Positions 6,511 to 10,523 of a stretch of 53,174 bases of DNA are shown here, in pieces (positions within the stretch are counted from its first letter, which is position 1; the number at the start of each line of letters is the position of its first letter). The stretch covers positions 1 through 53,174 of the forward strand of contig NZ_KB894605.1 in the NCBI RefSeq assembly GCF_000374545.1, read 5' to 3'. The notes beneath the pieces are model-generated. The model worked only from the letters and a program-made list of their open reading frames with translations, was not told where the DNA came from and did not search any database. The position numbers and the translations under genes are program-made. This DNA is from Anaeromusa acidaminophila DSM 3853 (GTDB lineage: Bacteria > Bacillota > Negativicutes > Anaeromusales > Anaeromusaceae).

Positions 6511-7161
6511 CTACGCGCTAACCTGCCGCGTGATCAAGTCGCCCTGGATGTTCATAGTATATTGCAATTGAGGCGCTAAGGCTTTAAAAAATTCCGCATG
6601 CCAAACCTCATGACACTGCGTCAGAAACTGGCTGTCTGCGCCGGCTTTCCCCCAATTTGCTCCTTGTATCCAGCCAGTATTACTCCACCTGGTCACTTTG
6701 CTGTCTTCCTGCTCCAGCCGGTCCCAACGATCACAAGGCATGCCGTTTAGCACCTTGCCGGCAAAGGCCGCATATGCTGCCGACGCGTCGGTTTCTTCCT
6801 GTCCGTCTTTGCGAGCTGCCAGTCCGCAAGTTTTCCCTTGAGCGGCAAAAACATTTTTTATCATTTCCTGTCCAGCAGTTCCAAAGCGCGCCAGCAGTTC
6901 TCTAACAGCGGCGCCTTCACGCAATTCGGCCAAATTAATTTGCCGCTGCAGCCAGCCATGTATATTACTCGCGTCAATCAGCTCCGCCAAATCCTCATCC
7001 GGCAATGGCTCTCCATAGGTCTGCCAAACCATTTCTCGTCCTTCTTCCGCCGCGTCGGCGTCAAACTGGGACGCCGACTCCCAAAGCAATTGTTCCCGCT
7101 CCACTAAGATACGAATTTTATGATACAGCCAGTAATGAATAGGTCCTAAATATAAGCTCAT
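6511..7161 (-). CDS. Uncharacterised protein paired with a siroheme reductase
   Basis: I do not recognise the family. The 216-residue protein is soluble, with no signal or membrane segment. It starts MSLYLGPIHYWLYHKI, is Ala/Glu-rich in helices in the middle, and carries conserved-looking Cys/His/Trp near the end (MPCDRWDRLE, then TQCHEVWHAEFF around residues 182-193). The CHxxxH-like cluster could bind metal or haem; this is a guess. The gene starts 15 bases after the siroheme reductase gene with a clear GGAGG site, so the two are almost certainly co-transcribed. A role in the same redox process is the simplest inference. Confidence 0.7.
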   Translation of the reverse strand: MSLYLGPIHYWLYHKIRILVEREQLLWESASQFDADAAEEGREMVWQTYGEPLPDEDLAELIDASNIHGWLQRQINLAELREGAAVRELLARFGTAGQEMIKNVFAAQGKTCGLAARKDGQEETDASAAYAAFAGKVLNGMPCDRWDRLEQEDSKVTRWSNTGWIQGANWGKAGADSQFLTQCHEVWHAEFFKALAPQLQYTMNIQGDLITRQVSA

Positions 7162-7176
7162 AGTAAATCCTCCGTT

Positions 7177-8136
7177 CTATTTGTTCTGTTCTTCTTTAAT
7201 GCTGCAGTTTAGCGCTTCCACCAGCTCTTCCACCTGCAGACCGTGAATAGCGGCCGCTTGCTGCAGCGGCTCTCCTGTCGAAGACGGACACCCGAGGCAG
7301 CCCAAGCCAAACGAGCGAAAAACCGGTACCGTGTGCGGATATACCTGCAGAATGTCGCTGATAACGGTTTCCGCATTTACCAATTCTCCCGGCTTCAGAT
7401 TTCCGTTTAACAGCGGCGCAGGCGCCTGCTGCTTGGCCAGAGGACGCTCTGGCTCTGCGGGACCTGGCTGCTGCCCGTAAAAGCGGCTCAACACTTCTTT
7501 TTGAAAACTTCCAAAGCCAATGCGGTCAATAAAAACTCCCATACGCTCTACCTCGGCATTTTGCTTGTAGAACGAAACAATGACATCGGCGATCCGCAGG
7601 GCTTCTTCCAAACTCAGCGATCCCAGCAGCTTATCCGCCAGCCTGGGCTGCGCTCCGGCGCAGCCGCCTACATACACATCCCAGCCGCTTTCCGTACCGA
7701 TGAAGCCCACATCTTTCACATGCACCTCGGCGCAGGAGTTAGGGCAGCCGGCTACGCCTATCTTAATCCGCGAAGGCATTTCTTTTTTATGGTAGCGCTT
7801 GTCCAGCTCCATGCCCAGCTTAATGGCATCTTGTTTGCCGCGCTTGCAAAAGGTGTCGCCTGGGCACATTTTGATGCTGCGCACGCAATTGGCAAACCCC
7901 ATGGCAGGCTGCATCCCCAGCAGTTCCCATACGCCTTCCACATCCTCCGCCTTTAAACCGGTGATCATAATGCGCTGCGCCGAAGTCAATTTCAGTACGC
8001 CGCCGAATTGCTCCGCCGCTTCCGCATAACGCCGCAATACCTCCGGTTTGACAAAACCTCCCGGAAGATGTGGCGTCACGGCATAGGTTTTTTTCCCGTC
8101 TCTTATTTTTTGCAAGTTTGCACCTTTAGGCTGCAT
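7177..8136 (-). CDS. Siroheme/4Fe-4S nitrite-sulfite reductase-like protein with DUF1858 tail
   Basis: This 319-residue protein has the compact nitrite/sulfite reductase fold: a ferredoxin-like N-domain (PGGFVKPEVLRRYAEAAEQFG), then the cluster/siroheme ligands in MCPGDTFCKRG (C-x5-C, about residues 90-97) and AGCPNSC (C-x3-C, about 130-135). A short linker leads to a DUF1858-type domain (about 255-310) with GCLGC and EPLQQAAAIHG, seen next to redox enzymes. It is shorter than classic assimilatory enzymes, so it may act with a partner. I chose the ATG at 8136 because AAGGAGG precedes it; the frame is open further upstream through the operator. Expression probably depends on the CRP/FNR-like site at 8198-8229. 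Confidence 0.85.
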   Translation of the reverse strand: MQPKGANLQKIRDGKKTYAVTPHLPGGFVKPEVLRRYAEAAEQFGGVLKLTSAQRIMITGLKAEDVEGVWELLGMQPAMGFANCVRSIKMCPGDTFCKRGKQDAIKLGMELDKRYHKKEMPSRIKIGVAGCPNSCAEVHVKDVGFIGTESGWDVYVGGCAGAQPRLADKLLGSLSLEEALRIADVIVSFYKQNAEVERMGVFIDRIGFGSFQKEVLSRFYGQQPGPAEPERPLAKQQAPAPLLNGNLKPGELVNAETVISDILQVYPHTVPVFRSFGLGCLGCPSSTGEPLQQAAAIHGLQVEELVEALNCSIKEEQNK

Positions 8137-8178
8137 AGCTTGTCTACCTCCTTCAGCATGGCTGTTCTCTATGGTCTT

Positions 8179-8229
8179 AGTATAGCCGCAAAAAGGAAAG
8201 CAGGCTGTGATATACCTCACAGCCTGCTT
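8179..8229 (-). promoter_or_regulatory. Promoter with CRP/FNR-type operator centred near -41.5
   Basis: A perfect inverted repeat (13-base arms, six-base spacer, 8198-8229) contains TGTGA-N6-TCACA at 8206-8221, the CRP/FNR-family consensus. On the minus strand a -10 candidate TATACT lies at 8179-8184. The expected start near 8172 puts the operator centre at about -41.5, the class II activator position, and the -35 region is replaced by the operator. The alternative is a plain RNA hairpin or terminator, since TTTCCTTTTT follows. Confidence 0.65.
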
Positions 8230-8282
8230 AAATTCGCCAATATCTGTCTCAAACAAATTCCAGTCTCTATAAAATCCCCCAG

Positions 8283-8317
8283 ACTAGATAATTTTTTTCC
8301 TCATTCACCTATCTAGT
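8283..8317. repeat. Short inverted repeat ACTAGATA / TATCTAGT
   Basis: Two 8-base arms are separated by 19 T-rich bases, between topB and the siroheme reductase promoter. No function is assigned. It may be a protein site or a remnant of an insertion boundary. Confidence 0.35.
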
Positions 8318-8331
8318 GGTATCCGATCACG

Positions 8332-8349
8332 GCCTCCAAGCTTGGAGGC
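8332..8349 (+). terminator. Perfect 18-base palindrome after topB
   Basis: GCCTCCAAGCTTGGAGGC is a perfect palindrome followed by TTTTAG on the plus strand only. For topB, on the minus strand, there is no T tract after it, so it is at best a weak terminator for that gene. The strand of function is uncertain. Confidence 0.4.
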
Positions 8350-8369
8350 TTTTAGTTCCATACTTCTTT

Positions 8370-10523
8370 TCAATCAATGAATTCCATTTTCCAGTTGTAT
8401 CTGCCTGTGTTTTGATCCTTGCCATAATAGAAATAGGCGGCAAACTTATTCCCCTTCTTGCTTTTTAAACCGCGAAAACCAACTCTTCCGTTTTTCAATA
8501 GCAGTTTAACCATCTCGGGTGATACTTGCTTTTCAAAAGACGCAATATATTTATCATCTTTCCAGATGGTAAATTTACAGCCGTTTTTCCAGTTGCTGCA
8601 GCCAAACGCCTTCGCTGACTCTACCACTGGGCTATTGCATTCCGGACACAAACCTAGTACTTCAACATCTTCCGGGATAATCGCATGGGCCCCAAAACCA
8701 GCGGCGTCTTTGACATCATTAACCGATTTTATCACGAACTCAATCATCATATTGATAAAATCAGCTTTGCTGAATTTTTTCTTCTCAATGTCCGCTAGGG
8801 TTTTTTCCAGTTTTCCCGTATACTCTAAGTCAAATAATTCTTTTACTGGGAATTTTTCCACCATCATTTTACCTAATTCGGTACAAGCTAGGCTTTTCCC
8901 TCGGATTTCGATATAGCCGACGTCTTTTAGTTTTTTGATGGTTTCCGCTCTAGTTGCAGGAGTCCCGATGCTAAAGCCGCTCAAGATAGCAAGCATCATT
9001 TCTTCCGCATCTTCTTCTTTATATTTACGGCCGCAATTTTCCATCTCGCGCAGTAACGTTTTTTCCGAATGATACTTAGGCGCCTTGCGCTTCACTTCAT
9101 TTACGCTGCTTTTATGCACAAAAACAGTATCACCATCTTCTACGTGGGGCAAGGTAATCTCTTTGGAAGTTACCTTTTCGACTTTCTTCCAGCCATCGTT
9201 TAATTCTACTTTTCCCTTGCTTAGAAAAACGCCTTCCAGCAGCTCACTGTCGATCTTAATAACCAATTCCGTCTCTTCATATTCTGCCACAGGCATAAAC
9301 TGTGCTAAAAAACGATTTACTACTGCCTCATAAACGATCTTTTCATCACTATTCATATTCCGTGGCAAAACATAGGTCGGCATAATGGCGGAATGGCTCT
9401 CAACCTTTTTACTGTCAAAAACTCGCTTGGACGTATGAAAAACGATGTCCTTTTCAAAGGGAAGCCCTTTTTTATGTGCATTTAATACTTTTTCCGCTTT
9501 TTCAATTAAGCTTTCATCTAATACTGAACTGGCTGTTCTCGGATAGGTAATCAACTTATTTTCGTATAAGCTTTGGGCTGTCTTCAATACTTTATCAGAA
9601 GTCCAGCCTTTATATTTACTGGTAATATGGCCTTGCAAATTCGATAAATTAAACAAGTATGGGGCATATTCTTTTTTATATTCCACTTTTTTACTTGTAA
9701 TGCGCGCCGTTTTTTCAGCCAACTCTTTTTGCAACAGTTCCAGCTTATCTTTGGTTTCAAATTTTTCACTTTCATTTTCATGATATACGCCTTCAAAGAT
9801 GCTGTCTTCCTTGGTTTTAAACTCGGAAACCAATTTATAGTAGCTGGATTCTTTAAAGGCTTCAATTTCTTTATCGCGATCATAAATGATCTTTAAAGTC
9901 GGCAATAAGACACGCCCAATATTTAAAACCTTGATCGATTCATCGGCGCGATATTTTACGGTAGCAACCGAGGTAAGGTTAATCCCAATTAGCCAGTCTG
10001 CCAGTTGTCGCCCAAATCCGGCATCTTGCAGCGAGCTCATTTCTGTATTGGAGCGCAAGCTTTGCAAGCCTTTTTTTACTTCATCGTTTGTCCATTCATT
10101 AAGCAGCAGGCGTTCTATGGGCTTTTTTATATCCAAATATAGTGCAATTTCATCAAAAATAATTTGACCTTCGCGATCATCATCTGTTGCCGCAATAATC
10201 CCGTCTATATCTTCTCGCATAATCAACGCGTGAATAATATCAACTTGCTTCTTGGCGCCGGCGTCAATTTGCTCTTTAGTCCGATCCGAAGACTTTATTT
10301 TATATTTAAATTCGCTTGGTATGTAAGGAAAATACTCTAATCTCCATCCTTTGAGCTCTAGATTATAATCTTTCAAATCATATAACTGCAGCAAATGGCC
10401 AAAAGCCCAGGTTATTACATAGTCGTTGCCTTCAATAAAGCCATCTTTCCTGATTTTAGCATTAATGGCGTCGGCGATATTTCTGGCTACTGATGGTTTT
10501 TCAGTAATAATCAATTTTTTCAT
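8370..10523 (-). CDS. topB: DNA topoisomerase III (type IA)
   Basis: This 717-residue enzyme relaxes or decatenates DNA by single-strand passage. It has the Toprim domain (MKKLIITEKPSVARNIADAI at the start, AATDDDREGQIIFDE for metal), the catalytic tyrosine in LITYPRTASS, the TopB signature SGFSIGTPATRAETI, and a C-terminal zinc-ribbon-like tail (CPECNSPVVE, FGCSNWKNGCKF). By eye the gene is clearly richer in A/T and lysine codons than the GC-rich genes beside it, which suggests transfer; topB copies are common on conjugative elements. No strong ribosome site sits at the ATG; AAGGAG lies well upstream. No mobile genes accompany it. Confidence 0.95.
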   Translation of the reverse strand: MKKLIITEKPSVARNIADAINAKIRKDGFIEGNDYVITWAFGHLLQLYDLKDYNLELKGWRLEYFPYIPSEFKYKIKSSDRTKEQIDAGAKKQVDIIHALIMREDIDGIIAATDDDREGQIIFDEIALYLDIKKPIERLLLNEWTNDEVKKGLQSLRSNTEMSSLQDAGFGRQLADWLIGINLTSVATVKYRADESIKVLNIGRVLLPTLKIIYDRDKEIEAFKESSYYKLVSEFKTKEDSIFEGVYHENESEKFETKDKLELLQKELAEKTARITSKKVEYKKEYAPYLFNLSNLQGHITSKYKGWTSDKVLKTAQSLYENKLITYPRTASSVLDESLIEKAEKVLNAHKKGLPFEKDIVFHTSKRVFDSKKVESHSAIMPTYVLPRNMNSDEKIVYEAVVNRFLAQFMPVAEYEETELVIKIDSELLEGVFLSKGKVELNDGWKKVEKVTSKEITLPHVEDGDTVFVHKSSVNEVKRKAPKYHSEKTLLREMENCGRKYKEEDAEEMMLAILSGFSIGTPATRAETIKKLKDVGYIEIRGKSLACTELGKMMVEKFPVKELFDLEYTGKLEKTLADIEKKKFSKADFINMMIEFVIKSVNDVKDAAGFGAHAIIPEDVEVLGLCPECNSPVVESAKAFGCSNWKNGCKFTIWKDDKYIASFEKQVSPEMVKLLLKNGRVGFRGLKSKKGNKFAAYFYYGKDQNTGRYNWKMEFID

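Follow-up and report, generated by a model that had tools for sequence, protein, structure and literature searches.

The perfect palindrome ahead of a siroheme reductase gene of Anaeromusa acidaminophila DSM 3853 very probably contains, judging from sequence comparison, a class II operator for an activator of the CRP/FNR superfamily. With a comparably high degree of confidence, we predict a small regulon that groups the gene with hcp, a short siroheme reductase gene, a cupin gene and, through a site with one mismatch, a hemerythrin gene. The case rests on the operator core combined with a -10 box at a fixed spacing and on the conservation of this arrangement, not on the number of sites. Positions refer to the window, the whole stretch of 53,174 nucleotides that was analyzed, unless a contig is named (Table 1).

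The inverted repeat has arms at 8198-8210 and 8217-8229 (AAGCAGGCTGTGA / TCACAGCCTGCTT) that are 100% complementary across a spacer of 6 nt, exactly the perfect 13-base-arm palindrome with TGTGA-N6-TCACA that the original prediction had described. On the minus strand the core, running from 8221 to 8206, is two-fold symmetric, and the elements follow in the order AAGCAGGC-TGTGA-GGTATA-TCACA-GCCTGCTT-TCCTTTTTGCGGC-TATACT-AAGACCA, then AAGGAGGTA and the ATG at 8136. The center of the palindrome, 8213.5, falls at -41.5 relative to a start near 8172 that was placed by arithmetic from TATACT, and the window sequence contains no -35 hexamer at the reductase promoter. The class II geometry proposed at the outset, with the operator in place of the -35 region, holds on this predicted start, and both the regulon and the taxonomic spread of the sites described below agree with it; activation of the reductase promoter, as opposed to repression, would be the expected effect. 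A search of positions 7900-8700 against Rfam yielded no credible RNA element, the one snoRNA match scoring below the gathering score.

Table 1. Features of the reductase locus and perfect TGTGA-N6-TCACA sites in the genome
Feature	Position	Strand	Basis or remark
Reductase CDS, 319 aa	window 7177..8136	-	NIR_SIR_ferr and NIR_SIR fused to DUF1858/TIGR03980; Pfam/NCBIfam
Ribosome-binding site AAGGAGGTA	window 8145..8153	-	sequence
Predicted transcription start (A)	window 8172	-	inferred from -10 box
-10 box TATACT	window 8179..8184	-	21 nt past TCACA
T-rich tract TCCTTTTTGC	window 8188..8197	-	past the stem, between operator and -10 box
Inverted repeat, 13-nt arms	window 8198..8229	-	outer arms AAGCAGGC/GCCTGCTT; with TTTCCTTTTT resembles an intrinsic terminator
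Operator core TGTGAGGTATATCACA (predicted)	window 8206..8221	-	center at -41.5
topB (topoisomerase III type)	window 8370..10523	-	upstream, co-oriented; Pfam/NCBIfam
Perfect site	window 8206..8221	-	siroheme reductase-DUF1858 gene
Perfect site	C20:47844		hcp (Hcp at C20:46098-47720)
Perfect site	C1:218520		second short siroheme reductase (NIR_SIR, 220 aa)
Perfect site	C21:14442		cupin

The open reading frame of the reductase (8256-7177) opens at a TTG, but we assigned the start to the ATG at 8136 with its ribosome-binding site, and the longer form is unlikely because the orthologs begin at this ATG. The predicted product is a small, single-unit siroheme/4Fe-4S reductase of the nitrite-or-sulfite type. 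For its reductase unit the best match is the C-terminal portion of NirB, and the solved relatives are an F420-dependent sulfite reductase and plant-type sulfite and nitrite reductases. The unit carries the siroheme/4Fe-4S ligand cysteines in the motifs CPGDTFC (residues 91-97) and CPNSC (residues 131-135), a C-x5-C ... C-x3-C arrangement. The C-terminal DUF1858 domain, which corresponds to TIGR03980, the 'hybrid cluster protein-associated redox disulfide' domain, has a cysteine pair in CLGC (residues 280-283), and its solved relatives are two small DUF1858-like proteins. The cysteines of all three motifs are invariant across 55 orthologs, and this, with the NIR_SIR domains, bears out the earlier naming of the gene as a siroheme reductase gene; the fusion to DUF1858 is an addition to that description. 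A third short siroheme reductase paralog of 228 aa (C7:37105-37746), which shares 48% identity with the window protein, is without the operator, and paralogs of this type were found in many genomes of the class. Downstream of the reductase gene, a 216-aa reading frame (6511-7161) had no Pfam or NCBIfam match, and the left edge of the window carries an IS30-like transposase reading frame (46-1170), recognized from its translation.

A genome-wide search for the motif returned four perfect sites, all placed in promoters. Four sites in a genome of 3.48 Mb is near chance expectation, so the single 16-mer core is not beyond chance and we dropped the site count as evidence for a regulon. At all four, however, TATACT or TATGCT stands 21-22 nt after TCACA, and the same four promoters are present in each of the four genomes of the genus (16/16), the other three genomes having exactly these four perfect sites. 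Further sites were found by allowing mismatches with the -10 position fixed. One of these, CGTGA-N6-TCACA with TATAAT at 22 nt, heads the hemerythrin gene in three genus genomes. Another, CGTGA-N6-TCACG with TATACT at 22 nt, lies on contig C20 of G001 (locus L075) ahead of an asrA-like gene (anaerobic sulfite reductase), named from its translation, and the same search did not find it in the other genus genomes. Two weak sites were not counted: for the one at C6:165549 there is no N-oxide gene that could plausibly be assigned to it, and the other, close to the DUF1858 gene at C7:23359, has no -10 box at the proper distance.

Orthologs of the reductase gene were scored as positive when the upstream region had a site with no more than two mismatches that was followed after 21 or 22 nt by TAnnnT. 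By this measure 44 of 54 orthologs in the class had both site and -10 box, and they span 19 family-level groups; several near-identical genomes of one genus are among the 54, so the effective number is smaller, although the signal still extends over many families. Dinucleotide shuffles gave a mean of 0.135 and a maximum of 2. The spacings cluster sharply at 21 nt (43 of the 44). Propionispora, too, shows such an arrangement, TATGA-N6-TCACA-N21-TATGAT. The ten orthologs without a site under this definition belong mostly to a single family (f23), in which most orthologs either lack the site or carry one that does not fit the -41.5 geometry. Upstream of seven orthologs in the class, two tandem sites lie about 22-23 nt apart, which suggests two bound dimers. 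The outer arms behave differently from the core: the GCAGGC arms are kept within the genus only, where they are complementary at 8/8 positions, whereas elsewhere 0-4/8 positions pair and the stem is not conserved. Because the core is kept class-wide and the arms are paired in the genus only, we concluded that the core, not the stem, is under selection. This is the opposite of the pattern that the original prediction had named as contrary to it, a stem conserved without its TGTGA/TCACA core.

The same promoter pattern was found well beyond the reductase gene. Of 200 Negativicutes genomes, 64 contain TGTGA-N6-TCACA-N21/22-TATnnT, against one genome for a reversed-pattern control. Among 83 class promoters that were inspected, 68 could be assigned to genes, mainly hcp (25), siroheme reductases (11, comprising five DUF1858 fusions, four short forms and two NirA-like forms), cupin (9), narK-type transporters (7) and hemerythrin (6), with HPP (3), narG (3), nirC (2), rubrerythrin (1) and ferredoxin (1) as less frequent targets. 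The other 15 sites, at genes that were not assigned as targets, are probably chance occurrences at least in part.

The palindrome also has the features of a terminator, a G+C stem of 13 bp with a 6-nt loop followed by a T-rich tail (TCCTTTTT), and its fold is more stable than chance (z -4.8) because the stem shares these features. The outer arms AAGCAGGC/GCCTGCTT moreover recur in terminator-like hairpins 3' of genes in this genome and genus. That the palindrome is nothing but the intrinsic terminator of topB, with TGTGA and TCACA coincidental, nevertheless appears exceedingly unlikely, given that the core and its 21-nt distance are kept in 40 orthologs outside the genus that have no complementary arms, that the promoters of hcp and other genes carry this core without a stem, and that the stem itself is retained in G001 and G002 despite a different upstream gene; on the strength of the ortholog comparison we discarded this explanation. 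The operator is preceded by topB in this genome and in G003, by an HTH gene in G001 and by a Vsr-like nuclease gene in G002 (L025 and L023 are the equivalent loci in G001 and G002), a variability that suggests a hotspot for insertions with the palindrome as its boundary. Compatible with the operator, and in our judgment possible though somewhat short of probable, is a dual element in which an ancestral operator was extended within the genus into a terminator-like hairpin that would block read-through before the -10 box and so insulate the promoter. Identical or nearly identical outer arms and T-tract in the four genus genomes, despite their different upstream genes, argue for such an element, as does the match of the arms to the terminator hairpins of the genus; but these genomes are closely related, which makes conservation over 16 nt weak evidence, and inspection by eye suggests that G001-G003 have separate hairpin/T-run terminators in their upstream regions. 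That the outer arms resemble part of a terminator had not entered the original prediction. Between topB and the operator lies a second palindrome, GCCTCCAAGCTTGGAGGC (8331-8350), with a T-run on the plus strand only.

Two CRP/FNR proteins score above the Pfam cut-off in this genome, and the one encoded at C2:163290 is most likely the regulator of the operator, as far as sequence comparison can indicate. It is an orphan CRP-type protein (224-227 aa) with the recognition helix RETLSR, and its RE--SR residues fit TGTGA under the rule that R180/E181 go with this half-site (PMC1274295). Proteins of this type are present in all four genus genomes, G003 included; in five genomes from other families a relative is encoded next to hcp, and a sister clade lies directly upstream of the reductase ortholog in six genomes, this clade being well supported and placed within or beside the C2 group in a tree whose root is weak. 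In this genome the C2:163290 gene is not adjacent to any target, and no operator site of its own was found at it. It is improbable that the second protein, C7:156073, serves the operator instead. With the helix RETVSR it could recognize this core as well, and in three genomes its gene is the next one downstream of the hemerythrin gene whose one-mismatch site was described above; we demoted it because G003 is without it yet retains all four operators. Most genomes of the class in which the promoters occur lack it too, and there the C2 type adjoins hcp. Control by cAMP-CRP or by an oxygen-sensing FNR is more improbable still, even though the operator core is identical to the CRP consensus of E. 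coli and C2:163290 scores best against CRP models, its best solved relatives being GlxR and CRP. In an alignment with 4cyd, the Gly/Arg region that contacts cAMP reads FAEVLLFNHLPYPAAS in C2:163290 against FGELSIFDPGPRTSSA in the GlxR structure, and the phosphate-contact arginine is missing; the protein has no cysteine at all and is therefore not an FNR-type Fe-S sensor. The class-wide promoters, too, head N-oxide genes and not genes of carbon catabolism, so that neither oxygen control nor carbon catabolite control is likely.

Because the regulon consists of N-oxide genes, we consider nitrite/NO, a nitrosative stress, the most likely inducer. Among the signals originally listed (oxygen, redox, nitrite/NO or cAMP-like), nitrite/NO is thus favored by regulon content, while sensing of oxygen by FNR and of cAMP is disfavored by the residues of the likely regulator. 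In the mechanism we propose, a CRP/FNR-superfamily activator, with C2:163290 as the candidate, would bind TGTGA-N6-TCACA as a dimer at -41.5 in response to nitrite/NO and recruit RNA polymerase to a TATACT promoter that has no -35 box, switching on the reductase, hcp, short reductase, cupin and hemerythrin genes by class II activation.

At the class II CRP promoters of E. coli the activator is centered at -41.5 and there is no -35 box; the geometry here is the same, but the candidate regulator lacks the cAMP-contact residues. A closer parallel is HcpR of Desulfovibrio, which recognizes the CRP-like motif wTGTGA-N6-TCACAw and activates hcp, and whose regulon includes a nitrite-induced pair, 206515-206516, that is sulfite/nitrite reductase-like and has sites near -35 (PMC545781, PMC1274295). 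Motif, hcp as a target and a sulfite/nitrite-reductase-like target are shared with our regulon, hcp being the gene most often found behind the class promoters, and we suggest that it works in a way resembling the Desulfovibrio HcpR regulon, a type known from other anaerobes. It differs in belonging to another class, in the fusion of the reductase to DUF1858, in a candidate regulator that is not adjacent in this genome, and in the cupin, hemerythrin, narK, nirC, HPP and narG targets added in Negativicutes. The HcpR of P. gingivalis uses heme (PMC12750200). In Thermoanaerobacter tengcongensis a CRP-like site lies upstream of hcp and the CRP-like Crp2 is encoded beside it (PMC1274295), but Crp2 is an ortholog of B. 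subtilis Fnr, and the candidate described here is a cysteine-free protein. Among reductases, alSir of D. vulgaris (DVU_1597) is likewise a small, single-unit siroheme/4Fe-4S enzyme, an assimilatory-type sulfite reductase with no extra ferredoxin domain (PMC3448663); the window protein adds the C-terminal DUF1858/TIGR03980 domain and its similarity to NirB. In the open-access papers that our literature search covered, we found no description of this regulon in Negativicutes.

A fuller picture can be drawn, although we consider it unlikely to hold in all its parts together. A CRP-type regulator that has neither cysteines nor cAMP contacts and falls outside the HcpR clades described so far would run a nitrite/NO regulon throughout the Negativicutes, the reductase-DUF1858 fusion would be a dedicated, hitherto undescribed partner that works with Hcp to detoxify N-oxides, and the operator of the genus would double as an insulating terminator. 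What began with one palindrome leads to a class-wide regulon with the promoter grammar TGTGA-N6-TCACA, 21-22 nt, TATnnT, and with it come a specific candidate for the regulator and a limited set of N-oxide enzymes. An uncharacterized siroheme reductase-DUF1858 fusion is thereby tied to hcp, and hence would serve the response to nitrite/NO and not ordinary sulfur assimilation, a prediction that can be tested in gut and sediment anaerobes.
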